Positions 4,308 to 63,999 of a DNA stretch of 64,000 nt are shown in pieces; position 1 is the first letter of the stretch, and each line of letters begins with the position of its first letter. The translations under genes were made by a program, and so were the position numbers. Under the pieces are notes generated by a model, which was not told where the DNA came from, ran no database searches, and was given only the letters and a program-made list of their open reading frames with translations. This stretch comes from Candidatus Scalindua japonica. Lineage in GTDB: Bacteria; Planctomycetota; Brocadiia; Brocadiales; Scalinduaceae. Location of the stretch: positions 124,001-188,000 of the forward strand of contig NZ_BAOS01000004.1 in assembly GCF_002443295.1 (NCBI RefSeq). The letters run 5' to 3'.

Positions 4308-5357
4308 ATGTTTAAACGAAGCGATATCTGGTGGACGTGTATTAGTCATAACGGCAGGAAGGTTCAAAGAAGTCTTGAAACCTCTGACAAAAAGCTTGCA
4401 CAAGCTATTGAGGCGAAGATAAGGACTGAGATTGTTGAGGGAAAGTATTATGAGAAATTGACAGGACATCGTAAAACCTTCAAAGATATGATGGATAGGT
4501 TTATGAAGGAGTATGCCCCTACAGTTTCTTCAAATACTCAAGAAGCGTACAAATATTATTTAAAAAATCTTAGCAGGTTTTTTGGCAATCCAGGGTTGAT
4601 GTCTATAACGCCCAAGATTGTCGCAAAATATAAATTGTATCGCAGAGATACTGGAGCAAGCCCATCAACAGTAAATCGTGAGCTTTATATGTTATCAAAG
4701 GCTTTCAATCTGGCAGTCAAAGAGTGGGAGTGGCTTAAGGACAATCCTGTTTCCAGAGTACAGAAGGAGCGAGAAAACAATGAAGTTGACAGGTGGCTGA
4801 CAGAAGATGAAGAGAAGAGGCTTCTTGGCAATAGTCCTGACTGGTTACGTGAGATAATAGTTTTTGCATTGAACACAGGTTTACGACAGGATGAATTGTT
4901 GTCCCTTGAGTGGAGCCGTGTAAATCTGCTCCGTAAGACTGTTCTTATACAAAAGACTAAGAATAATAAGCCCAACACTCTTCCTTTGAATAGCATAGCT
5001 CTGAATGTCATTATGCAAAAGCATGAAGGTAAGGTGAGAAGCCTTAAGAATGATCTTGTGTTTATCAGTAAGTCAGGTACAAAGATTGGTAAGCGTAACC
5101 TGATAAGGGCATTTGCCCAGGCATTAGAGAAGGCGGAGATTAAGGATTTTACATTTCATTGTCTTCGCCATACTTTTGCCACAAGATTAGCCCAGAATGG
5201 TGTAGATATTTACAAAATAGCAAAGCTCTTAAATCATAAAGACCTGAAGAATACGCAACGCTATTCGCACCATTGCCCGGAAAGTTTAATGATTGGTGTT
5301 CAGATTTTGGAAAAGTTTGACTACAATTTTACTACAATGGCTCAAAAAGGTGGTTGA
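4308..5357 (+). CDS. phage-type tyrosine recombinase (integrase)
   Basis: A 349-residue site-specific recombinase with an N-terminal arm-binding region, a SAM-like core-binding domain (about residues 55-150), then the catalytic domain. The catalytic residues are visible: Arg in TGLRQDELL (about residue 193), His-x-x-Arg in HCLRHTFATRLA (about 283-287), His in LLNHKDL and the Tyr nucleophile in QRYSH (about 319). A strong AAAGGAG site precedes the ATG. The gene ends 41 bases from a tRNA-Val 3' fragment, the classical position of an integrase next to its att site. All key residues are present, so it may be active. Confidence 0.92.
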   Translation: MFKRSDIWWTCISHNGRKVQRSLETSDKKLAQAIEAKIRTEIVEGKYYEKLTGHRKTFKDMMDRFMKEYAPTVSSNTQEAYKYYLKNLSRFFGNPGLMSITPKIVAKYKLYRRDTGASPSTVNRELYMLSKAFNLAVKEWEWLKDNPVSRVQKERENNEVDRWLTEDEEKRLLGNSPDWLREIIVFALNTGLRQDELLSLEWSRVNLLRKTVLIQKTKNNKPNTLPLNSIALNVIMQKHEGKVRSLKNDLVFISKSGTKIGKRNLIRAFAQALEKAEIKDFTFHCLRHTFATRLAQNGVDIYKIAKLLNHKDLKNTQRYSHHCPESLMIGVQILEKFDYNFTTMAQKGG

Positions 5358-48640: not shown

Positions 48641-49327
48641 GTATGTACCCTCTCTTAGTTAATTTTTTACTTATTCAATTTAAAGATACTTTTTTAAACA
48701 TTCTATGCATCTTTGTCAAGGTGAATGTTGATGTAGACATTGATCTGTTTACTATGGCAGATGGTTACAGTGAAAGAAATTGCAGAAGCTCTTCCCGCTT
48801 CATATGAAAAACAACATCGGTCTAGTTGTCAATAGGTGTTTCTGAAAGTGTTATAATAGCAAGGAACGCCCCACTATCTATAATGGACTGGGATTATCGG
48901 ACCACTATGTAGAGCTTAGCCGAAAAGGTTTATCTAAGGTTCAAAGCAGTGCGGTAGTACACTAGCTCACCAGCTTCCACCTCTATTTACTGTAGCGCAA
49001 CACCTGCATTCACTTGATGCTTCCGGAGCTCTGCATTAAGATCAAGATTGTGTAAAATTGGTACAAGTAAGTTAAGAATGATACACATTAAGTTCAGCAG
49101 GAATACATATCTAAATTTATATTTATTGGAAAAAAAGATGTAACATACCTGTCCGTTTTACCTTTGTGGCTTATTTCTATAAAGCGGTTAAAACTAAAAA
49201 ATTTATAGGCATAAAATTTGCCCTCTTATCAAGCACAACAAGTGCTTTCATATTAGCTATTGTTACTATAGAGATTTTTTTATAAAGATTTTGCAACGTT
49301 TTTAGGAAAAAATAGAGGAAAATGATA
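48641..49327. other. intergenic region
   Basis: The 687 bases hold no gene I can support. A short plus-strand reading near 48760-48830 (MVTVKEIAEALPASYEK) looks coding-like, but it ends quickly and has no partner. It may be a scrap of a lost gene. Nothing else is clear. Confidence 0.35.
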
Positions 49328-51292
49328 ATGAATAAAATTATATTAAGTAAAATAATTGAGTACTTTTCGTATTCTGCGTTCAACCAGATTTGTTTTAACA
49401 AATTGACTAGGATCTGCTCTGTTTTAATTATTATCATAATGACAAACACAATGTTTGTAAATATTCAGGCGGATTCTTTTACCCTGACTGTCAACAATGG
49501 AAGCGGGGAAGGCTATTATGAGGAATCCTCAAGGGTAAACATTTGGGCTAATCCGTATGATGATAGCGACCCAGATAGAAGAACTTACGAGACATCTGAC
49601 CCGAAAGTACCGCACCGAATATTTGATCGTTGGACTGGAGACACTGTTTATCTTGCTGATATTTTTGCAGCTCAAACATCACTAATAATGCCTGCTATTG
49701 ATATAAATGTCACCGCCCAATATAAAAGTGTTTCTCAGTGGAGTGTACCTAAAGCAATTTCTTACTTTCCGATAACACACAAGGGAGTTATCTTCTTGTT
49801 TCATGCTCATGGCGGATCTGCTATAAATCTATTTTCAAAAACTGAAAATTATTTATTTGTCAATGACGCCATTTCACGAAACTACGCTGTGGTTGCTATT
49901 GACAGTTTTGATCAAGTCAATAAACAGTGGGATCTTACGGTTTCAGCCGCAGACAATATTGACATGCAAAGAGTGGCTGCGTTACGTGACAACTTGATCT
50001 CTCTGGGCAAAATAAACCTAACTGATAAAATATACGTCTTAGGCATATCTAACGGGGGTATTTTTGCATCACTTTTTGATCAAACAAACCAGGGAATTAT
50101 CAACTTTCCCGTAGATGCGTCAGCAATATACATTTCCCCGGGCAACTCAGATATCATGAAATCTACTGAGGTACCAACCATTTTCCTACTCGCTGAAAAC
50201 GATAGTTTTAATTTTAATGAAATAGCGCTTAATACCTTCAACAATCTGCTTAACCGAAACGTGCCTGCACAATACTGGGTCAATCACCCTTCCCCCGTTT
50301 ATGCACAGCGATTCTGGCGTATTCAAGGCATTTCCCGGACAGATTCAGAGGTAATTTATAATGCATTGAGGAGTGGTGGCTTACTAGATGATAAAGACTT
50401 TCTGATTGACAACCCTATTTCCTCAGGATGGCGAAGCCTTATACCGGCTGAATATTCCAAATATGCACTTTCTATAGACACTCAGTTATTGATTTCGCAT
50501 GCTGAACATAGTTTTACGAGTAACTTCAACCATAAGACACTTAATTTCTTCGATAATCCTACAACCATTAACGACTTTGCCCCAGTGATCAGTGGATTTT
50601 CTCCTAATAACGGAGAATGGGGAACTTTGGTAACCATTGAGGGAAGTGGTTTTATTAATGTCACAGAGGTAACTTTCAGTGGGATAGTTACCCCAATCGT
50701 GAATAGTTCCATTAATAAGCTCCTGGTAAAAGTACCTTACGGTGCATCTACCGGATCAATAGAGGTCACCAACACGGAAGGTACAGCAATGAGCCCTTTC
50801 TGCTTTGTCGTCTCTTCACCTGAAATTACCAGCTTGGATCCGGAAGAAGGCGGCGTGGGCACTCTTGTTTCGATTACAGGCAACAGTTTTGTGGGTGTTA
50901 ATGTGAATTTCAATGGTGTTAGCGCAGAAATTGTCTCTAAAACCATTAACAATATTTGGGTCCAAGTGCCTGTTGGGGCTACTACAGGAGCAATAACAGT
51001 TACAAACGATTTGGGCACTTCCACCAGCGCCAATAATTTTACGGTAATTCACCAACCGATAATCAATAATTTTACACCTACCTCCGGGCCTGCTGGCACC
51101 ATAGTTACCATTACGGGTGAGAATTTCAGCAGAGCAACATCTGTCAAACTCGGTGATGTATCACAATTATTTTCGGTTGATTCTGATACTCAAATCAGCG
51201 CCACAATTTCTAACGAGGCAACAACGCGTAAAATCCGTGTCACAACACCAGGCGGTACTGTTTTCACTGATTCATTTTTCAAGGTCAGGTGA
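49328..51292 (+). CDS. secreted alpha/beta hydrolase with IPT/TIG domains
   Basis: The start at 49328 has a GAGG site at a better distance than the ATG at 49322. The 654-residue protein has a long signal-like N-terminus, a short repeat domain (FTLTVNNGSGEGYYEE) and an alpha/beta hydrolase with the nucleophile elbow GISNGG. It ends with three IPT/TIG beta domains (about 420-655, each beginning like ITSLDPEEGGVGTLVSITGNSF). The hydrolase-plus-IPT design suggests a surface-bound polymer-degrading enzyme. The substrate is unknown. Confidence 0.75.
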   Translation: MNKIILSKIIEYFSYSAFNQICFNKLTRICSVLIIIIMTNTMFVNIQADSFTLTVNNGSGEGYYEESSRVNIWANPYDDSDPDRRTYETSDPKVPHRIFDRWTGDTVYLADIFAAQTSLIMPAIDINVTAQYKSVSQWSVPKAISYFPITHKGVIFLFHAHGGSAINLFSKTENYLFVNDAISRNYAVVAIDSFDQVNKQWDLTVSAADNIDMQRVAALRDNLISLGKINLTDKIYVLGISNGGIFASLFDQTNQGIINFPVDASAIYISPGNSDIMKSTEVPTIFLLAENDSFNFNEIALNTFNNLLNRNVPAQYWVNHPSPVYAQRFWRIQGISRTDSEVIYNALRSGGLLDDKDFLIDNPISSGWRSLIPAEYSKYALSIDTQLLISHAEHSFTSNFNHKTLNFFDNPTTINDFAPVISGFSPNNGEWGTLVTIEGSGFINVTEVTFSGIVTPIVNSSINKLLVKVPYGASTGSIEVTNTEGTAMSPFCFVVSSPEITSLDPEEGGVGTLVSITGNSFVGVNVNFNGVSAEIVSKTINNIWVQVPVGATTGAITVTNDLGTSTSANNFTVIHQPIINNFTPTSGPAGTIVTITGENFSRATSVKLGDVSQLFSVDSDTQISATISNEATTRKIRVTTPGGTVFTDSFFKVR

Positions 51293-54060: not shown

Positions 54061-55560
54061 TTACATTTTGTTTTGTTCTTCTTGTGTAATCATCAGTTTC
54101 GACGTATTTATTTTCTGAGCAGCTTCTGTGACCCACCCGCCACCCAATGCTTTATAAATACTCACAATGGCGGCAAATAAATCTTTCTGAATTTGAGCAT
54201 ACTTGATTTCTGCTGAATATAGTTCTCTTTGTGCGTCTTGTACGACAAGATAGCTTGAATATCCTCCATCGTAACGACTACGGGAAGAAGACTCGTAATC
54301 TTCCAATACGCTAACAAGACGGTCCTGAATCACTATTAACTCCTTAAGCTTCTGAATGGTAATCAAAGAATCATCGACCTCTCTAAATGCATTTTGTATA
54401 GTAATAAGGTATTTATTAACTAATTGTTGTCGGACGGCTTCAGCCTGCCGTATCTCTCCCTTAATTCGACCGCCTGAGAAAACAGGACCAGCAATCGCTA
54501 CTCCGGATCGCCAGATTTCAGCCGCTGATCGCATCAAGTTAGAGAGTTCAAGACTAGCGTATCCAAATAGCCCGGAAAGGGATATGGAAGGAAAATATTG
54601 AGTCTTTGCTACACCCACTCTTGCATTAGCTGCTATTAAATTTTGTTCACTCTGACGTATATCCGGACGTTGTTCTAACAGATCGGAAGGAATTCCCTGA
54701 GGAACCTCTGGTATGACAAGCATATCAAGTTTTTTACCACGTTTAATCTTTCCTGGTCCCCTTCCCAAAAGAACTGAAAGAGTATTTTCTTGCAACGCAA
54801 TTCTAAGTTCCAATTGTGGAATATTGACAGATAACTGTTCAAATGCTGACCTAGCCTGAACCAGTTCCAAATTAGAAACCTGTCCCCCTTTAAATTTATT
54901 TTCAAACAACTGTAACCACTGTTCTCTTAAAGCCAAGGTTTTCTTAGAAATTTCAAGTTGTTTATCCAGATTCAGTAAGTCAATGTAAGCAGTGGCAACT
55001 TGAGACACGAGTGAAAGGATTACTGCTTGCCGGCTTTCTTTTTGGGACAACAACTCTGCACGAGCAGCTTCCGTTGACCTTCTAATTCGACCCCATATAT
55101 CCAGTTCCCAGTTTACATTTAAATAATTCTGGTAAGAAGCATTGACACGGTCTTTACTGGTTGCGAGGGCCTGATTTCTCCGTTCCAAACTTTGACTGTC
55201 ACGACTGGTCAAAGTCCAATAATCCAATTGTGGATAAAATACCGATTTCTCTCCCTTCAACCTGAAAACAAATTCTTCAACACGGGCAGAAGCAAGAATT
55301 AAATCTTTATTCTCTTTAAGTGCGATTTCAATCAGTTCGTTAAGCACTGGGTCCTGAAAGCATTCCCACCAGGCTAAATTGGCCAGATCAGCAGCTTCAA
55401 TATAATCTACATGGCAGCTGTACTCGATATCAACTTGTGGACGACGATAGTCTTGTGTTATAGAGCAACCGGAGAGCAACCATAACAACAACACATAAAA
55501 AATTACGGTTCCGCCCATATTGCGCGTCCACATACATATATAATTTTTGCATACTATCAT
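54061..55560 (-). CDS. NodT/TolC-type outer-membrane efflux lipoprotein
   Basis: The 499-residue protein has a lipobox (LLSGC, Cys32 in this numbering) and a duplicated outer-membrane efflux domain rich in heptads, ending in the usual AIVSIYKALGGGW. It should form the trimeric outer-membrane channel of a tripartite exporter. A start at M15 is also possible. The esterase gene ends 9 bases upstream on the same strand. The HlyD-fused protein at 59478 is the likely inner partner. Confidence 0.9.
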   Translation of the reverse strand: MIVCKNYICMWTRNMGGTVIFYVLLLWLLSGCSITQDYRRPQVDIEYSCHVDYIEAADLANLAWWECFQDPVLNELIEIALKENKDLILASARVEEFVFRLKGEKSVFYPQLDYWTLTSRDSQSLERRNQALATSKDRVNASYQNYLNVNWELDIWGRIRRSTEAARAELLSQKESRQAVILSLVSQVATAYIDLLNLDKQLEISKKTLALREQWLQLFENKFKGGQVSNLELVQARSAFEQLSVNIPQLELRIALQENTLSVLLGRGPGKIKRGKKLDMLVIPEVPQGIPSDLLEQRPDIRQSEQNLIAANARVGVAKTQYFPSISLSGLFGYASLELSNLMRSAAEIWRSGVAIAGPVFSGGRIKGEIRQAEAVRQQLVNKYLITIQNAFREVDDSLITIQKLKELIVIQDRLVSVLEDYESSSRSRYDGGYSSYLVVQDAQRELYSAEIKYAQIQKDLFAAIVSIYKALGGGWVTEAAQKINTSKLMITQEEQNKM

Positions 55561-55569
55561 ACAGCAGGA

Positions 55570-56517
55570 CTATTTTTCTTTTGAAAATTGTTTTGCAAAC
55601 TCCCATGCTTGTTTGCTTGCAGAAATCTGGCTGTGGCCAGAAGATCTATTATTACGCCCTTGACCCCCCGGCCATACATGAGCACCACCTTTAATTACCA
55701 TAAGGTCTACAGGGGCACCATTACTACAGCGATAAGAAAGCACCCGGACTTTGCTATTTATTTCCTTTGTCTCAAGAGGAATGGGTTGACGTGATTTAAG
55801 AATAAGCTCCATTGTGTCAGGCACTGATCTATGGGACACCCCTGCCACACTTCTGGAACCTTTACCCCCGTCATAAGGCACATTATTGTCCCGATCTCCA
55901 TGAATATGTAACACAGGAATATTTTTTGCTTCGTCACAGTTGCCAACCGCAAGAGTGCCAGATACCGGAATGATTGCCGCAATCTTATCAGGAATTTCAC
56001 AAGCTAAACGATATGCCATCATTGCACCATTTGACATCCCTGTTACATAAACTCGTCGAGTATCTATTGAAAATTTTGAATTAACACCTTCTATGACTTT
56101 TTCTATAAACAAGGTATCATCTACTCTTCCCCTTACAGCTCTTCCACAACAACGGCCTGCATTCCAAGTCCTACGGTTTTTTTTAAAGAAGCGGCCTCCC
56201 GTTCCATTTGGATATACTACAATAAACTTTCCAGTGTCAGCAACATCATTCATTCCAGTCATCTTCTCCATGTACTTCGCATTGCCTAAACCACCATGAA
56301 GTACAATCATTACAGGTACATTTTTAGTATCAGATATTATTGGCTTGTAAACAATATAACTTCTTATAACATCTTTAACAACAAGTTCATGATAAGTTGA
56401 TTGTCCTTTTTCGGCAACAACAATTCTTGGAAACAGAATATAAAACAGAACCATACAGAATATCATTATCCGAAATAACAGAAGTATTTTTGTTTTTTCC
56501 CCTTCGCACATAATCAT
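55570..56517 (-). CDS. secreted PHB-depolymerase/feruloyl-esterase-like hydrolase
   Basis: I choose the ATG at 56517, preceded by AAGGGGAA, giving 315 residues with a signal peptide. The protein is an LpqC/PHB-depolymerase-type esterase. It has MIVLHGGLGNAKYM, the nucleophile GMSNGAMMAYRLA, HIHGDRDNNVPYDG with the Asp, and a C-terminal GGAHVWPGG with the His. It should hydrolyse polyester or aromatic ester outside the cell. Downstream is the outer-membrane factor gene. Confidence 0.85.
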   Translation of the reverse strand: MIMCEGEKTKILLLFRIMIFCMVLFYILFPRIVVAEKGQSTYHELVVKDVIRSYIVYKPIISDTKNVPVMIVLHGGLGNAKYMEKMTGMNDVADTGKFIVVYPNGTGGRFFKKNRRTWNAGRCCGRAVRGRVDDTLFIEKVIEGVNSKFSIDTRRVYVTGMSNGAMMAYRLACEIPDKIAAIIPVSGTLAVGNCDEAKNIPVLHIHGDRDNNVPYDGGKGSRSVAGVSHRSVPDTMELILKSRQPIPLETKEINSKVRVLSYRCSNGAPVDLMVIKGGAHVWPGGQGRNNRSSGHSQISASKQAWEFAKQFSKEK

Positions 56518-56585
56518 GTTTAGCTTTCCCCTTAATAAGTATTTAAACAATCACATTCAACGAATTAGAAAAATTCTAGAAACAA

Positions 56586-57017
56586 TTAAATTTCACCTTG
56601 GTATTGGTCGATTAAATCAAGCGCAAGGTCCTCAATTTCTTTTACCTTGCTGAGATTATTACGAAGTTCTGAACAAAGTGCCTCAAACCAGCGAATTTGG
56701 GTTTCAATTTTCATGCGTTCTGCTATTATATCTTCAAGAGGTAAATTAACTGGAGGCTCTCCATCTTTATCAAAGAGGAATCGGATAGAGTCCCCAATTT
56801 GCCGGTTAATATTAATATGTTTTACCTGTTCTGCTATGAACGCTTTAACCTTATTGACTTTAAATTTCCTGATAGAGGCTTCACGTAGAGCCTTTTGCGG
56901 AGCGGTGAGTCCTTCCAGAGATTTTTTCAGATCTTTAGGCTCAGTATCAATCTTGCAGATCTTCTTCCTCTCCCCTAGTTTTTTAGATTGTCTATTTTTA
57001 TCAATTTGTTTGGTCAC
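56586..57017 (-). CDS. hypothetical helical protein
   Basis: The 143-residue protein is basic at the N-terminus and helical throughout, with no signal peptide and no recognised family. Features are VKAFIAEQVKHININRQIGDSIRFL and a LSKVKEIEDLALDL end. It lies between the sulfotransferase-like gene and the esterase gene on the same strand, so it probably belongs to this unit. Confidence 0.55.
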   Translation of the reverse strand: MTKQIDKNRQSKKLGERKKICKIDTEPKDLKKSLEGLTAPQKALREASIRKFKVNKVKAFIAEQVKHININRQIGDSIRFLFDKDGEPPVNLPLEDIIAERMKIETQIRWFEALCSELRNNLSKVKEIEDLALDLIDQYQGEI

Positions 57018-57065: not shown

Positions 57066-57974
57066 TCACTTATAGCCAAAATCTTGCGCAAGACCAAGCA
57101 CTTCCATACGCAACCCTTTACCATCTTCTCGCCATGGAAGCGGTTCATCTAGTGGCGGTATTTTTGGCTTATGTTGACGAAAAGCAGAACCACGAAGAAA
57201 ATTAGGATCATTACCAAATAAGGCATTAATTGGCCCAAAGCAGGCAAATGGCGATCGTTCCGGATGCATCATCTCTTCAATAGCATTATCATCATCACGA
57301 ATTCCAAGCCAGCGGCACACAATTGCCAATTGTTTTTGAGGATGTTCCATAAGTTCCTCACCCCTCATACGCATTTGCTGATCTTTAGGCACTATATCCA
57401 AAAAATTCAGAATGTTGATATTTATATCGTGCCAAATAATTTGAGGATCTACAATTAAACGATTGTTTTCGAATTCAAACGCATTAAAGAAAAAAGCAAA
57501 TATTCCGTCGTTAAGTTTTGCAATTGATTTGCTTTGTGGAATAGGATGACGAACCAGATGTAAGAACCGTGCATCTGGAAATGTTTCAAAAATTCGTGTT
57601 AGCCGTTTCATAGATATTGTATAAGCAGGGCTTTTTTCAACAGGAATCAGAGGATCTATCCTGGATACTATCTCTTTAAACACTTCTTCTGTTTTTCTAT
57701 CCTCTCTTACCGCAACCCAATGTAAAGCCATATTAATAGTCTCAGGTGTTTGTTCTCCCGCGTATATCTCTGCGACGGTCCTGAGCACTCCATGACGACG
57801 ATTGCTGTCACCTCCAATTTCATGAGAAACCGGACGCCAGAAATCCTTTAATCTTTCTACATTGAACAGGTTGAGCTCTGGCAAACCAAACGCATCAGGA
57901 TGTTGTCCGATCATAGCATTTATCACAGATGTGTAGGACCTTGGTGGTGCTAATAAAAAAAGTGGTGGAGCCAT
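57066..57974 (-). CDS. sulfotransferase family protein
   Basis: The 302-residue protein has the PAPS-binding 5' loop in FLLAPPRSYTSVINAMI. A later FPDARFLHLVRHPIPQSKS matches the 3'-phosphate motif of sulfotransferases. It would transfer sulfate from PAPS to a hydroxyl or amine. The acceptor is unknown; it could be the exported product of this cluster, which is inference. No PAPS-synthesis gene is in the window. Confidence 0.8.
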   Translation of the reverse strand: MAPPLFLLAPPRSYTSVINAMIGQHPDAFGLPELNLFNVERLKDFWRPVSHEIGGDSNRRHGVLRTVAEIYAGEQTPETINMALHWVAVREDRKTEEVFKEIVSRIDPLIPVEKSPAYTISMKRLTRIFETFPDARFLHLVRHPIPQSKSIAKLNDGIFAFFFNAFEFENNRLIVDPQIIWHDININILNFLDIVPKDQQMRMRGEELMEHPQKQLAIVCRWLGIRDDDNAIEEMMHPERSPFACFGPINALFGNDPNFLRGSAFRQHKPKIPPLDEPLPWREDGKGLRMEVLGLAQDFGYK

Positions 57975-58102: not shown

Positions 58103-59335
58103 TCATGGACCAAGACCGGTATCTACACGATAAATACCCTCTTTAATTCTAGGATCAGTATCTGTTCCAGGTATCTCTCGATTATAATAAATATAGGGCC
58201 CTTGATCTGTAACAAATACTTCTGGGTCTATTCGTAATTTATTTGGATCGGTGGTCAAATTTTTAACGAATCCACCTGCTGGGACGATATCTGCCAACCA
58301 TATTTGCGTAGGCACGTCAGAAGCCAAATGATTGGGAGAGGTACTTGCGACAAAGGATATGTAAGATTTGCCGTTATGCACAAAAGGCTCTGGCGACCAG
58401 AAATAGATACCTGTCGAAGGTGGGCTAATTGTTTTAAACACATTCCACTCTTCTACACCATCTTGGTTAATCGTCTTATTATAAACACGTATCACAGAAA
58501 AATTATTCATCTTGACTGAGGCGAAAAATATATATTCATCGTTAAATTCGGGTGCTTTCCACATAAAAACTGTCTGTTTACGACCAGAATCAAAAGTTAG
58601 TTGTTCTGTTTCTTCAGTATTACAATCATATAAAAAAGCTTGTCTTCCTCCGTTATCAAGAGTTGCAGAAAAAACAAGAGCGCGTCTGTCAGGAACCCAT
58701 CGTCCACCGGTTGCCCCTAAAGACATTGGAATTGTTTCTTCTGTTATGGCATAATCAAGTACACGCCACGCAAGTATGTGCTGGTTATTTCCAATTCTCA
58801 ACAAATAAAAGATTAACGGATTGCGATCCTCTAAATTCAAGCTGGCAAGAGGATTTAAACGTTTTTTACTTTTATGAAGGAAATCAACGATCCATGAGTT
58901 ACTAATCTCTGTTGCCTGAGCAAGACCGACACGTAAATCCTGAAGCTTCTTATTATAAACAAGACGTGGCCCTTGAGAAGTTGCCGCCCACTCAGGCCCA
59001 TTACCTTGATATATTGTATCGGTATCAACAAGCAATGCTTTACCATCAGGAGGTAGAAATTCTCCAGTTTGTGGATCAATATATCCAATCCAAAGCTTTC
59101 CCCCGTCAGTAAAATCAGTCCAGGCAAACCTGGGGTTTGCATAATCAAATTCGTAATCAATGATATTATCAGAAGTAACCTGGATTTCTTCACTGGCAAA
59201 CGTAATAACTGACCAATAGCTACTTAAATTAAAAACACAAGTCAAAAGTACCGTGGCATATACATGCCTTTTGCTTACTGTAACCGCTGAAGAAATAATT
59301 TTACAACTTTTCAACATGTTAAATATTTTTTCCAT
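58103..59335 (-). CDS. secreted PD40/TolB-like beta-propeller protein
   Basis: The 410-residue protein has a signal peptide (hydrophobic segment about 20-45) and repeated blade-like strands. Examples are NPRFAWTDFTDGGKLWIGY, GRQAFLYDCNTEETEQLTFDSGRK and SKDYISFVAS-type repeats. It resembles TolB/PD40 propellers but the match is weak. A strong AAAGGAAGG site precedes the ATG. It lies between the sulfotransferase-like gene and the fused exporter gene. Confidence 0.65.
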   Translation of the reverse strand: MEKIFNMLKSCKIISSAVTVSKRHVYATVLLTCVFNLSSYWSVITFASEEIQVTSDNIIDYEFDYANPRFAWTDFTDGGKLWIGYIDPQTGEFLPPDGKALLVDTDTIYQGNGPEWAATSQGPRLVYNKKLQDLRVGLAQATEISNSWIVDFLHKSKKRLNPLASLNLEDRNPLIFYLLRIGNNQHILAWRVLDYAITEETIPMSLGATGGRWVPDRRALVFSATLDNGGRQAFLYDCNTEETEQLTFDSGRKQTVFMWKAPEFNDEYIFFASVKMNNFSVIRVYNKTINQDGVEEWNVFKTISPPSTGIYFWSPEPFVHNGKSYISFVASTSPNHLASDVPTQIWLADIVPAGGFVKNLTTDPNKLRIDPEVFVTDQGPYIYYNREIPGTDTDPRIKEGIYRVDTGLGP

Positions 59336-59477: not shown

Positions 59478-61886
59478 TTAAGGATGCCACGACCATACCT
59501 CTATTTTGAAAAACCGAATGACGGACAATGACAAAACTTTCCAAATCGGCATTGCTTCACTACTGATTTTCATGTATCCTGACATTCCTGATTTTAATAG
59601 GCCATCTTTGTTGTCTATCAGTGTGCAAACCTTAACTATATTGCCAGTTTGACTCTCTGTCACATTTGTGTCAATTGAAACAACCTGTCCTGTAAAGTCA
59701 ATATTATAGTAGGCATTGCTACGTCCCCGAATTTTAGCCAATTTTTCAATATAACCAATATTGTGTTCCGGTATTTCAATTTCAGCAATTACCTGATCTG
59801 TATTTTCAACAGTAGCAAACGGTTCCCCCATATTAAGGTAACTGCCAATCTTTTGTTTAAGATGCATAGTTATAATTTTGCCATCAAACGGCATATAAAA
59901 AATAGATTTCTCTATCATCTCCTGGTTATAATCACGTTCTTCCTGCCAACTTAGTAGCTTAGCTTCCGCGGCAGCAATTTGATCAGGGGCTGCTCCAGAC
60001 TTTATCAATTCAAGATTAGCACGTTTTTCCTCTACTCGCTTGAGATCAACATCGGCCTCTCGCCGTACCTCATCCAGCTCTTCAAAGGAAATCGTGTGCT
60101 CTTCATAAAGCTCCTCAAGGCGCTTTACTTTTGCGCTACTAAACTTGTATCTTGAACATTCTACTTCTAAAGCACTTTCTGCAAGCTGAATCTCTTCAGG
60201 TTTAGGTCTGGATTTTAATTCATCAATTACTGCTTGTTGCTCCTGCATTTTTGCGTTGTAAATTTTTACCTTAGCCAAATAGTCACTATAGGAAAGCCGT
60301 CCAATTACCGTTCCTTTCTTTAAGTACTCACCACCATCGAAGAAAATTTCATCAATAATTCCGTTAATTTCCGCAGTAATTTCCTGTTTCTTATTTGGCA
60401 GGATAACAAAACCTCCGCCTGGTTCATATTTCCATGGTATAAACAATATAATCAAAAAGCAAGCAGGTATTGACCTCTTTAAATACGTTGTTAATGAATT
60501 CTGATTTTTTTTTCTGACGATATCATCTTCTACTTTTGGTAGTGTACGGCTACGCCAACGTTCAAATTGAACGGTACGTTCATATAGCTGCCCAATTTTT
60601 CTAAACTTTTCTATCATTCGAAATATAAGAATTGGGGCTGCAATCACGATAAATAATATGCTGGGACCTCCCAGGTATATATTTAGAAAGCTACTCATGA
60701 TAATAAGAATAACAGCATACAGTAATACCATGAATAAGATTGATGCCAGCCCATAAGCTGCTAATACATTATTATCCGTTTTTTGATATACATTGCCTCT
60801 AACCTTATTAATCAATGCCCTATAAGACTTTCCTCTCAAGTGAGGTTCATTTACTAAAGCAGTTAACAGGTAATAACCGTCACTTTTCACTAACGGATTC
60901 ACTGTTATTAAGAAGGAAATGAGACCAACAACAGCTGCAGTCAGGGCGCTAGAAGACAGTAAACTGTCAGTCGATCTTATGTTAAACCACAATAATAAGC
61001 CAAAACTAAATAGCCCTAAACGCATCAACAGCGGTGAAGCATGCAACCAGATCTGTTCGCGCCGTGAAAGCTGTCGCACTTTGTCAATTCGAGCCTTAAA
61101 CCGTGGTATAAAACCTAAATAAAATACGATACAAAAACCACTCACAGTGGCACGAAAAGTAAAAGCTACTAATGCTTTAACCCAAGTTACTGAAAAGTTA
61201 ACAACAAACATACTGAACAAGAGATTTTTAATAATTGAAAAACCATCAAACAGGTGGACCAACTCTTTCTCAACGATAACAGCATGCCGAATATATATAA
61301 CAGTAGCTAAAATCAGAAGGAGAGGAAGAAAATAAATTGTATGTTTAAAAGGTAATAGAAACGGTTGGAATATTTTCAAAAGCCAGGTAGGGTTGAATAG
61401 ATTCCATTCCCTTTTGCGAACGGTGGCTTCAAGATCTGCATCATCTGTCGTTGTGTAAAATGGCTCTTCACTTACTTTAGTGGTAAGTTCTGGTTCTGTA
61501 TTATTTCTAGATTCTGAATTTTCTTCAACTGAAGATGTCCATTGCTCTGTTTCTTTTTTCTTATTAAAAGCTTCCAAAATAGGATGTGTTATTTCTGATG
61601 CGCCAAAAAGCTTTTTATCATCAACAAGAAATAAAAGATTTTCTAATTCCTCTTGTGTGATAGTATGTCCAAAACGGTCCTTAAATACAGAAGCGAGTTT
61701 TGAGAAGTCTTCACATCCAGGCAAAACTTCCAAAACAAAAAACTGCCAGGGTTCAAACTGATGCGTTTGTCCGTATACTTTATCTTTTACTAGAAAGATT
61801 TGCCCTTTACCATGTTCTACCCGGAAAGCAGATAATTTTTTACGTAAGAAAGCTGGAGTCGCAACTCTCTGAATTTTCTTATTCAA
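59478..61886 (-). CDS. PqqD-like / M50-like (dead) / HlyD fusion exporter protein
   Basis: The start is TTG at 61886 with an AAAGGA site. The 802-residue protein has a PqqD-like winged helix (about 1-97) and a long linker. A membrane region of about six segments resembles a site-2 protease (M50). A HlyD-type adaptor follows from about residue 490 (barrel-sandwich VILPNKKQEITAEI, long coiled coil, FYMPFDGKII). The M50 region keeps NPLVKSDGYYLL but where HExxH should stand it reads WVKAL (about 233), so proteolysis is unlikely. It may recognise and export a peptide, with the TolC-type protein as outer channel. Confidence 0.8.
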   Translation of the reverse strand: MNKKIQRVATPAFLRKKLSAFRVEHGKGQIFLVKDKVYGQTHQFEPWQFFVLEVLPGCEDFSKLASVFKDRFGHTITQEELENLLFLVDDKKLFGASEITHPILEAFNKKKETEQWTSSVEENSESRNNTEPELTTKVSEEPFYTTTDDADLEATVRKREWNLFNPTWLLKIFQPFLLPFKHTIYFLPLLLILATVIYIRHAVIVEKELVHLFDGFSIIKNLLFSMFVVNFSVTWVKALVAFTFRATVSGFCIVFYLGFIPRFKARIDKVRQLSRREQIWLHASPLLMRLGLFSFGLLLWFNIRSTDSLLSSSALTAAVVGLISFLITVNPLVKSDGYYLLTALVNEPHLRGKSYRALINKVRGNVYQKTDNNVLAAYGLASILFMVLLYAVILIIMSSFLNIYLGGPSILFIVIAAPILIFRMIEKFRKIGQLYERTVQFERWRSRTLPKVEDDIVRKKNQNSLTTYLKRSIPACFLIILFIPWKYEPGGGFVILPNKKQEITAEINGIIDEIFFDGGEYLKKGTVIGRLSYSDYLAKVKIYNAKMQEQQAVIDELKSRPKPEEIQLAESALEVECSRYKFSSAKVKRLEELYEEHTISFEELDEVRREADVDLKRVEEKRANLELIKSGAAPDQIAAAEAKLLSWQEERDYNQEMIEKSIFYMPFDGKIITMHLKQKIGSYLNMGEPFATVENTDQVIAEIEIPEHNIGYIEKLAKIRGRSNAYYNIDFTGQVVSIDTNVTESQTGNIVKVCTLIDNKDGLLKSGMSGYMKISSEAMPIWKVLSLSVIRFFKIEVWSWHP

Positions 61887-61989: not shown

Positions 61990-63465
61990 TTATTTGTGAT
62001 TAGGAGCAAAATATGCTTCACAACCTCCTCGTGGATTATGTATATATTTATTCCCATTCAGTGGCATAATTTTAGGCCCAAAAGGATTAGCGGTACCTAC
62101 AAATAAACCATAAGGAGATGAAGACATTGAACGCAATCCAATGTTATAAGGATTGCCCATTCCATTTGTTGTTACTGGAACCCAATTCTCTCCATCAAAA
62201 CTTCTATACAAATCAAAGCCAGATTGGTTATCCATAATAAACTGCTCACCAACCTGATTTATTATACGAACAAATGGTTCAGGCCATGTCTCTCTATCTA
62301 CATAACCAAGTAGACAACTCCAGTCAAAAGTGGAAAGATAAAGCCAGCCGTTGTGCTCACACATCCGCCAAAAATAGCCACAAAAAAAATTGTCAAACCC
62401 CGGCAAATACCCTGAAAGTGATTCTTTCATGCCGTCAGGTGTATCCCGAGCATCTCCGACTATTAAATCCCAACTCCCATCAGGAAAAACACGTATTAGC
62501 TCTGGTGGAGCAGGTCCAATGTTGTGTTGCCTATCAACACCCCCTCCTTGTATTGCGCTACCGACATATAGAGCTCCTTTAAACACGAACATACTGAGAA
62601 CAACTTGATTCAGTGGACCACGATAAGCTCCTTTTTCCATGAATTTTTCCCATTTGTAAGGAGCTTTACCTTCTGCGGAAGTACGCCAAATTTGATAACC
62701 TTCTAAATTAAAAGTACCCGCATATAGATGTTTGCCAAAACTGGCCATTTCAAAAACTGTTTTATTGCCAGGTTCACCAAAGCCAAAAATATTTATCGGT
62801 TCCCATTGGCCTTTAGCAGGATCTTTACTTTCGTAAACAATAGAATGCGCAGACACGTTTGGTTGTCCTCCACGGGAACCTGCACCTGTAGTATAAAGGC
62901 AGTCTTTAAATTGAACCATGGTACGTATAGTTGTTATTGGTAAACCAATCAAACCGGGTTCACAGGACTGTTCAAAATTTCTACCATCCTCAGACCTTAA
63001 CAGTACAGGACCAGGCCCCTTGGCAGGAGACCAAGTGCTTACAAAAAGTGCTGGTTTTTCACTTTTTCCAGTTTGATAAACTATCATACCTCGATACCCT
63101 AAATCCCGGGGTATTGGCTTACCATGACTACCAGTTATAATCGGCGCTTTATATACTCTTTCCCAACTGTCATTCCGTATGCTATAACGCCATATCTCTG
63201 CGCGTAAATCGAGATCAAAAGGATCCTCCGGACACTCTACAGGCCATGGATTCATACTGATTGGTAACCGTGCCTTCATCAATGGAAAATTACCACGCGT
63301 TGTAGACACATAGAGATGATTGTTAAACCAGGTCATAGAATGAGCGTAGTTATTTAACCCATCGCCAAAACCAGTATCGGCTATCTGAAAAAAGTCTTTT
63401 TGCGAAAAACCACGGGTTATACCAAGTCTATTTACAGAAGACACTAAACACGTTCTCCTAAGCAC
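61990..63465 (-). CDS. propeller-like protein of unknown function
   Basis: The 491-residue frame starts at GTG (63465). A second GTG at 63444 has an AGGAG site at better distance and may be the true start. The protein has repeated blade-like motifs, each with short hydrophobic strands and Gly-Asp turns (LYVSTTRG, LFVSTWSPAKG, LYTTGAGSRGG, LYAGTFNLEG, LYVGSAIQGG). No signal peptide is clear. It starts 3 bases after the stop of the hydrolase gene, so they are co-transcribed. Confidence 0.6.
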   Translation of the reverse strand: MLRRTCLVSSVNRLGITRGFSQKDFFQIADTGFGDGLNNYAHSMTWFNNHLYVSTTRGNFPLMKARLPISMNPWPVECPEDPFDLDLRAEIWRYSIRNDSWERVYKAPIITGSHGKPIPRDLGYRGMIVYQTGKSEKPALFVSTWSPAKGPGPVLLRSEDGRNFEQSCEPGLIGLPITTIRTMVQFKDCLYTTGAGSRGGQPNVSAHSIVYESKDPAKGQWEPINIFGFGEPGNKTVFEMASFGKHLYAGTFNLEGYQIWRTSAEGKAPYKWEKFMEKGAYRGPLNQVVLSMFVFKGALYVGSAIQGGGVDRQHNIGPAPPELIRVFPDGSWDLIVGDARDTPDGMKESLSGYLPGFDNFFCGYFWRMCEHNGWLYLSTFDWSCLLGYVDRETWPEPFVRIINQVGEQFIMDNQSGFDLYRSFDGENWVPVTTNGMGNPYNIGLRSMSSSPYGLFVGTANPFGPKIMPLNGNKYIHNPRGGCEAYFAPNHK

Positions 63466-63468
63466 AAT

Positions 63469-63999
63469 TTAGCAAAAAAGCTGAGACAACAAATGTTCTT
63501 TCGCTTCATTTAAATTCTCAAAAGGTCCTTTCTTTATTGATTCCCGTGTGTCAAAAAACCATTTATCATCTCTGACATAATATCGATTAGATCTAAAGTA
63601 ACGTTGATTTGAATCTCCCTTTCTACGGGAAAGTTTGTTTACTAACGCGCCTTTCCAAAATTCTCTACAGTTTTCCATAAACTCCGAAGGGCGTGTGATA
63701 GGAAAAAAATGCCCTGCTTCACGTATTCTTCTAAAATCAGCATGTGGCCACAATTTCAAGAGTTGTTCACCGGTTAACATGGCCTGGGAGTGTTCACCGT
63801 ACATTGCGAGTATCGGAAATCTAAGCATCCTTAAACGATTCAACAACAAACCATCATCACTCATTAACTCCTTCTCTGCCTCGGTTGTATTTATTAATTT
63901 CAACCATTGGGTAACGGTTCGTATACCTTTTTTCCACATCAAGGGTCGTAACAATTCTTCCACCTCTGGAGAGATCTCAATATTCTGTATCTGCATGGT
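63469..63999 (-). CDS. alpha/beta hydrolase with DUF6316-like tail, 5' end beyond window
   Basis: The open frame runs off the right edge; the ATG at 63996 is only the last visible Met. The visible 175 residues include the end of an alpha/beta hydrolase: PILAMYGEHSQAM (Asp/Glu position) and EAGHFFPITRPSEF (catalytic His). A C-terminal DUF6316-like piece follows (RYFRSNRYYVRDDKWFFDTRE, GPFENLNEAKEHLL). It heads the visible part of the export cluster. Confidence 0.7.
   Translation of the reverse strand, partial: TMQIQNIEISPEVEELLRPLMWKKGIRTVTQWLKLINTTEAEKELMSDDGLLLNRLRMLRFPILAMYGEHSQAMLTGEQLLKLWPHADFRRIREAGHFFPITRPSEFMENCREFWKGALVNKLSRRKGDSNQRYFRSNRYYVRDDKWFFDTRESIKKGPFENLNEAKEHLLSQLFC

Follow-up and report, generated by a model that had tools for sequence, protein, structure and literature searches.

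A predicted M50-like pseudoprotease joined to an HlyD-type exporter adaptor beside PKS genes in Candidatus Scalindua japonica

Introduction

Loss of the catalytic motif HExxH from a site-2 protease (S2P) homolog with retention of a function is known from Arabidopsis, in which EGY3, an S2P pseudoprotease without HExxH, functions as a stabiliser (PMC10978774). Derlins are described as rhomboid pseudoproteases, in which a dead intramembrane protease has been co-opted to move substrates out of the membrane (PMC8641752). Pfa-type secondary lipid synthases consist of iterative KS-AT-ACP-KR-DH PKSs together with a PfaD-like NMO domain (PMC3098273), and the words sulfotransferase, HlyD, efflux and transport are absent from the text of that survey.

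The protein described here is encoded in a 64,000-nucleotide stretch of DNA from the anammox bacterium Candidatus Scalindua japonica (hereafter the window) and can be set against each of these systems. Its membrane domain is homologous by profile to the site-2 proteases (PF02163, Peptidase_M50), from which it differs by the lack of a zinc ligand at the HExxH position and by its fusion to an HlyD domain. It shares with EGY3 the absence of HExxH from an S2P homolog, but EGY3 is a plant chloroplast protein with another architecture and no exporter; derlins have another fold, belong to another kingdom and act in protein retrotranslocation. The window locus resembles the Pfa-type synthases in its PKS and NMO domains and differs from them by its sulfotransferase and exporter genes. 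With the EmrA/MacA-TolC tripartite exporters it has an HlyD arm and an outer-membrane efflux protein in common, whereas no MFS or ABC pump was recognised in it and its adaptor bears an M50-like bundle and an RRE-like head. The closest relatives are the HExxH-bearing PqqD-M50-HlyD proteins, with the same order of RRE-like head, M50-like bundle and HlyD arm, a length of ~700-800 aa and an NPL-x-x-x-GY core; compared with them, the clade of the window protein has lost HExxH and, mostly, the Asp, and lies in a PKS locus, not in a multi-MFP module. No paper combining M50, HlyD and PqqD was found in the literature searched; the pseudoprotease clade is real, conserved and probably undescribed. S2P-class pseudoproteases have been described in plants, and a conserved bacterial clade in a probable exporter offers a natural experiment on the non-cutting roles of the S2P fold.

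Results

Domain architecture of the 802-aa protein

The ORF and the parts of its product are as follows.

59478..61886, minus strand: pseudoprotease-adaptor ORF from the ORF list, 802 aa, TTG start with AGGAAAAGGA upstream
61533..61886, minus strand: N-terminal PqqD/RRE-like domain, residues 1-118 (AlphaFold pLDDT 89.6, and Foldseek)
60420..61412, minus strand: M50 (site-2 protease)-like membrane domain, residues 159-489, predicted to be catalytically dead (hhalign, NCBIfam)
61176..61190, minus strand: VTWVK, residues 233-237, the pentad in the HExxH columns (three alignments)
60870..60899, minus strand: NPLVKSDGYY, residues 330-339, where the third zinc ligand would lie (Asp336) (alignment)
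59478..60419, minus strand: HlyD/membrane-fusion domain, residues 490-802 (Pfam HlyD_D23, 4.1e-13, above the cut-off; HlyD_3, 6.1e-10)

The protein is thus composed of three parts, a PqqD/RRE-like domain, an M50-like membrane domain and an HlyD adaptor, and is 60-61% identical over the full length to its orthologs at loci L068 and L069. The predicted structure of residues 1-118 has the three-stranded, three-helix winged-helix fold of PqqD/RRE domains; its best Foldseek matches were the leader-binding TbiB1 (5v1u, prob 1.00, TM-score by target 0.66) and lasso B1 (6jx3), with E-values of only 0.02-0.3 (0.02 for TbiB1), and the window protein had no match to Pfam PqqD. The membrane domain was aligned with the HExxH-bearing relatives over 265 columns (hhalign probability 99.7, E 4e-25) and contains the multi-spanning M50 core, the C-terminal half of which (residues 310-431) was matched by NCBIfam daptide_HExxH at 1.2e-12. 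Pfam Peptidase_M50 did not match the window protein at E up to 1; an HExxH-bearing relative exceeds the gathering cut-off of that family (31.9 vs 27.2). In the HlyD domain, with EmrA and MacA as fold matches, helices (534-661) lie between beta elements, which corresponds to the lipoyl/barrel-sandwich and alpha-hairpin arrangement of membrane fusion proteins. A sequence search of the structure database with the window protein gave only a marginal EmrA match (E 0.005). In the full-length model (pTM 0.27), the membrane domain was predicted with low confidence (mean pLDDT 55), so that the M50 fold assignment rests on the profile alignment, and modelling of the zinc site from this model was dropped.

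Loss of the HExxH site

An earlier sequence-only reading had reported WVKAL in place of the HELGH of site-2 proteases in an M50-like region. This was borne out, with WVKAL at residues 235-239 (61184..61170, minus strand), and the columns of HExxH themselves fell on V233-T234-W235-V236-K237, 2 residues ahead of WVKAL, in a 34-row, a 100-row and a profile-profile alignment, the last made from HExxH-bearing relatives aligned without any clade member. A displaced HExxH elsewhere in the protein, named in the same reading as the finding that would overturn it, was looked for; neither HExxH nor H...H is present anywhere in the 802 residues. All 89 sampled members outside the group of the window protein (loci L140 and L143, which did not pass the family filter, were left out of the count) keep HExxH as well as the Asp of NPxxxxDG (or DA). 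None of the eight clade members keeps HExxH, and its absence is therefore not due to chance. The clade shares no invariant His, Asp or Cys in the membrane domain, where E277, E347 and E488 are the only invariant acidic residues, and this argues against a displaced metal site. The alignments support the assignment of the window protein as a putative M50-like pseudoprotease joined to an exporter adaptor.

The second motif gave a different result. The window protein reads NPLVKSDGYYLL at residues 330-341 (starting at 60899), and the claim that the downstream motif is kept holds for this sequence only: KSDGYY is confined to the window, and all seven relatives in the clade of eight have KSSGYH, with Ser in place of the third-ligand Asp (D336). 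The window codon, GAC, is at least two bases away from the AGT/AGC of the relatives. With the root placed among the HExxH-bearing relatives, L085/L086 and L083/L084 diverge earlier than the window protein; since the latter is nested inside the clade, one reversion is more parsimonious than independent losses in several lineages. By this parsimony argument the DGYY of the window is probably a reversion to Asp. DGYY as the mark of a partly preserved, half-active site was rejected on account of the KSSGYH of the relatives and the distance between the codons.

Distribution of the family and selection on the membrane domain

An HMM built from three HExxH-less proteins and run on 392 Planctomycetota genomes gave about 150 matches in 89 of them, by which the PqqD-M50-HlyD family is widespread in this phylum. 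In the genome contigs, a single-sequence scan gave no match and an alignment-based scan gave four loci; plasmid matches were limited to the HlyD part, and no relative was found in the viral contigs. The HExxH-less clade comprises eight proteins, from the window, a Brocadia (L070), a Spongiibacteraceae member (L068), a Desulfobulbaceae member (L069) and four members of the order of L068 (L083-L086). It spans three phyla, with Planctomycetota, Pseudomonadota and Desulfobulbaceae members, and its branch has an SH-aLRT support of 100. Two more distant proteins also lack HExxH, namely those of another Scalindua (L071) and of genome G669 (L078). A branch with a support of 98 separates all ten from the rest, but it is a point at which long branches meet. 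As M50 proteins are usually active, we infer, the tree being unrooted, that protease activity was the ancestral state. Judged by its sequence, the real family of the window protein is PqqD-M50-HlyD, of which it is a predicted inactivated member. By eye, two long B12-binding radical SAM-like proteins (L037:118-5056) lie near the other HExxH-less protein, that of Scalindua OFTM180, with methyltransferase-like and TPR-like proteins between this pair and the HExxH-less protein.

Pairwise omega for L083/L084, L085/L086 and window/L068 was 0.02, 0.23 and 0.26 in the membrane domain and 0.02, 0.08 and 0.23 in the HlyD domain, respectively; dS was saturated for the L068/L069 pair. In the membrane bundle 62 of the 331 positions are invariant across the three phyla. 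The membrane domain is maintained under purifying selection, and the retention of a pseudoprotease claimed in the sequence-only reading is thereby confirmed in several genomes.

The PKS locus

The other genes of the locus in the window are listed below.

63469..63999, minus strand: alpha/beta hydrolase with a DUF6316 tail, leaving the window (347 aa in the genome)
61990..63465, minus strand: conserved 491-aa partner whose one family match, to Kelch, is weak (E 0.05); probably a beta-propeller
58103..59335, minus strand: 410-aa exported protein (weak TolB match, E 0.03; 74% identical ortholog at the L069 locus)
57066..57974, minus strand: sulfotransferase (Pfam Sulfotransfer_3, 1.2e-19)
56586..57017, minus strand: 143-aa conserved small protein without a family (54-71% identical orthologs)
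55570..56550, minus strand: PHB-depolymerase-like esterase (NCBIfam e_dPHAscl_type1, 1.4e-47)
54061..55560, minus strand: NodT-type outer-membrane efflux protein, the likely outer-membrane partner (NCBIfam outer_NodT, 8.1e-110)
49322..51292, plus strand: secreted TIG-domain protein, a possible accessory (45% identical to a homolog next to this cluster in genome G416)

Upstream of the pseudoprotease, the genome encodes a 2786-aa NMO-KS-AT-ACP-KR-DH protein, a 1590-aa KS-AT-DH-PPTase protein, a free ACP, a phosphodiesterase, the alpha/beta hydrolase and the 491-aa partner; downstream lie the genes for the exported protein, the sulfotransferase, the 143-aa protein, the esterase and the NodT-type protein. 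The intergenic gaps from the 491-aa partner through the efflux gene are 9-142 bases, which leaves little room for a precursor-peptide gene there. The TIG-domain homolog (L165:14059-15777) is in a Desulfobulbaceae genome, and given its place beside the G416 cluster, transfer may have involved more than the operon.

A PKS locus with two PUFA-synthase-like PKSs is conserved in the eight clade genomes, often together with an ACP, a phosphodiesterase, a beta-propeller-like protein, a sulfotransferase and an outer-membrane efflux protein (the last in four of the loci read). L068 and L069 have the window gene set in nearly the same order, with the 410-aa exported protein placed elsewhere in L069 and a sulfatase gene after the pseudoprotease in both; the Brocadia locus is likewise ordered over the part of the contig read. 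The set is kept in L083 and L084 without an assigned phosphodiesterase. In L085 and L086 the PKSs and the pseudoprotease are kept, a sulfatase and, in L086, an esterase lie on the other side, and no efflux protein was assigned. Sulfotransferase orthologs are 70-81% identical in L068, L069, L083 and L084, and NodT-type orthologs are present in L069, L083 and L084, so that the adaptor and the outer-membrane channel expected of a tripartite exporter occur together. The 491-aa partner has no Pfam family and ranks with the best-conserved proteins of the locus. Copies recovered from other clade loci, across phyla, share 69-79% identity with that of the window; at L086 the partner was not recovered. 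At E up to 1e-30 it occurs in one of 324 Planctomycetota genomes, its own, and the locus is therefore rare. In G669 the unit is split into genes for PqqD-pseudoM50, HlyD and an outer-membrane efflux protein, in this order, and adjoins a sulfotransferase and a relative of the 491-aa partner.

Neither the window cluster nor the seven other loci contain a recognised ABC, RND or MFS pump; many flanking ORFs, including most cluster ORFs of the Gammaproteobacteria, were assigned by BLAST to window genes rather than by a domain scan. The pseudoprotease is thus the one multi-spanning inner-membrane protein noticed in the locus.

Discussion

With moderate confidence, the protein is read as a non-cutting pseudoprotease scaffold in an exporter of a PKS-derived, probably sulfated, polyketide or lipid, from which proteolysis was lost together with a change of cargo. 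It would serve as the inner-membrane platform and periplasmic adaptor of this exporter: the cytosol-facing RRE-like head would dock a maturation enzyme or the free-standing ACP as carrier, the M50-like bundle would hold or pass the product without cutting it, and the HlyD arm would couple to the NodT-type outer-membrane channel. Replacement of an ancestral protein or peptide cargo by a small molecule would have made proteolysis dispensable. The product is probably a sulfated lipid or polyketide, as read from the gene names, and the same gene context suggests a transport role, in which this product would be exported and the ACP would dock at the RRE-like head. The new structural role put forward in the sequence-only reading is retained as the best reading of conservation and gene context, at the strength of a proposal. 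In a bolder extension, which we regard as unlikely, acyl-carrier-bound lipids would cross the inner membrane through the dead S2P bundle itself, in a tripartite exporter without a pump, on a path from the ACP through the RRE-like head, the former protease cavity and the HlyD arm to the outer-membrane channel.

An inner-membrane pump is normally needed by HlyD proteins, and the protein could be a periplasmic adaptor only, its M50-like bundle being a vestigial anchor and transport being done by an ABC, RND or MFS pump encoded elsewhere. The presence of other HlyD proteins in the same genome is in keeping with this, but the whole bundle is conserved and selected (omega 0.02-0.26), its conserved residues including N230, R262, E277, R289 and E347, and no recognised pump accompanies the locus, although its other parts recur in different phyla; we consider this explanation somewhat unlikely. 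The retained RRE-like head, which is the same in the HExxH-bearing relatives, would also suit a non-catalytic handler of peptides or proteins, in which the head and the remaining S2P groove bind a peptide (e.g. a peptide-polyketide conjugate) and escort it uncut, although the narrow gaps of the cluster, with little space for a precursor-peptide gene, make such a handler improbable. That the protein is still an active metalloprotease with a different, displaced metal site is very improbable: the window protein has Asp336 and H182, H201, H211, H282 and H349 as candidate ligands, but none of these is invariant in the clade, an H...H pair is missing, and the invariant acidic residues are unaccompanied by His or Cys. 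Single metagenome-assembled genomes can contain errors, and ordinary gene decay or an assembly error might be suspected in any one of them; the motif is, however, absent from all eight genomes in three phyla, with intact frames and low omega, and this explanation is refuted by the relatives, its chance being negligible.

The scaffold reading, in which the cargo has changed, can be compared with the surroundings of the HExxH-bearing members. Those at L153, L154 and L157 lie in modules of GAF-HlyD, HlyD and PqqD-M50-HlyD proteins. In the two neighbourhoods inspected, from which the term protein cargo is taken, L157 adjoins a 1657-aa DUF5649 repeat protein and L160 an RTX protein, and these giant repeat proteins may be the cargo of the respective exporters. 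A rule is suggested by which HExxH is kept if the PqqD-M50-HlyD exporter adjoins proteins and lost if it lies beside a PKS.

Further observations concern the surroundings of the locus. In G1106 and G1158 (L083, L084, L164, L166) the PKS-exporter locus has a trpE-like gene on one side and trpG/trpD/trpC-like genes on the other, and in G416 (L165) a trpE-trpG-like run lies ~10 kb upstream of the PKS, these gene names having been read from the protein starts. In the window, a 349-aa ORF at 4308-5357 resembles, by eye, a tyrosine recombinase/integrase.
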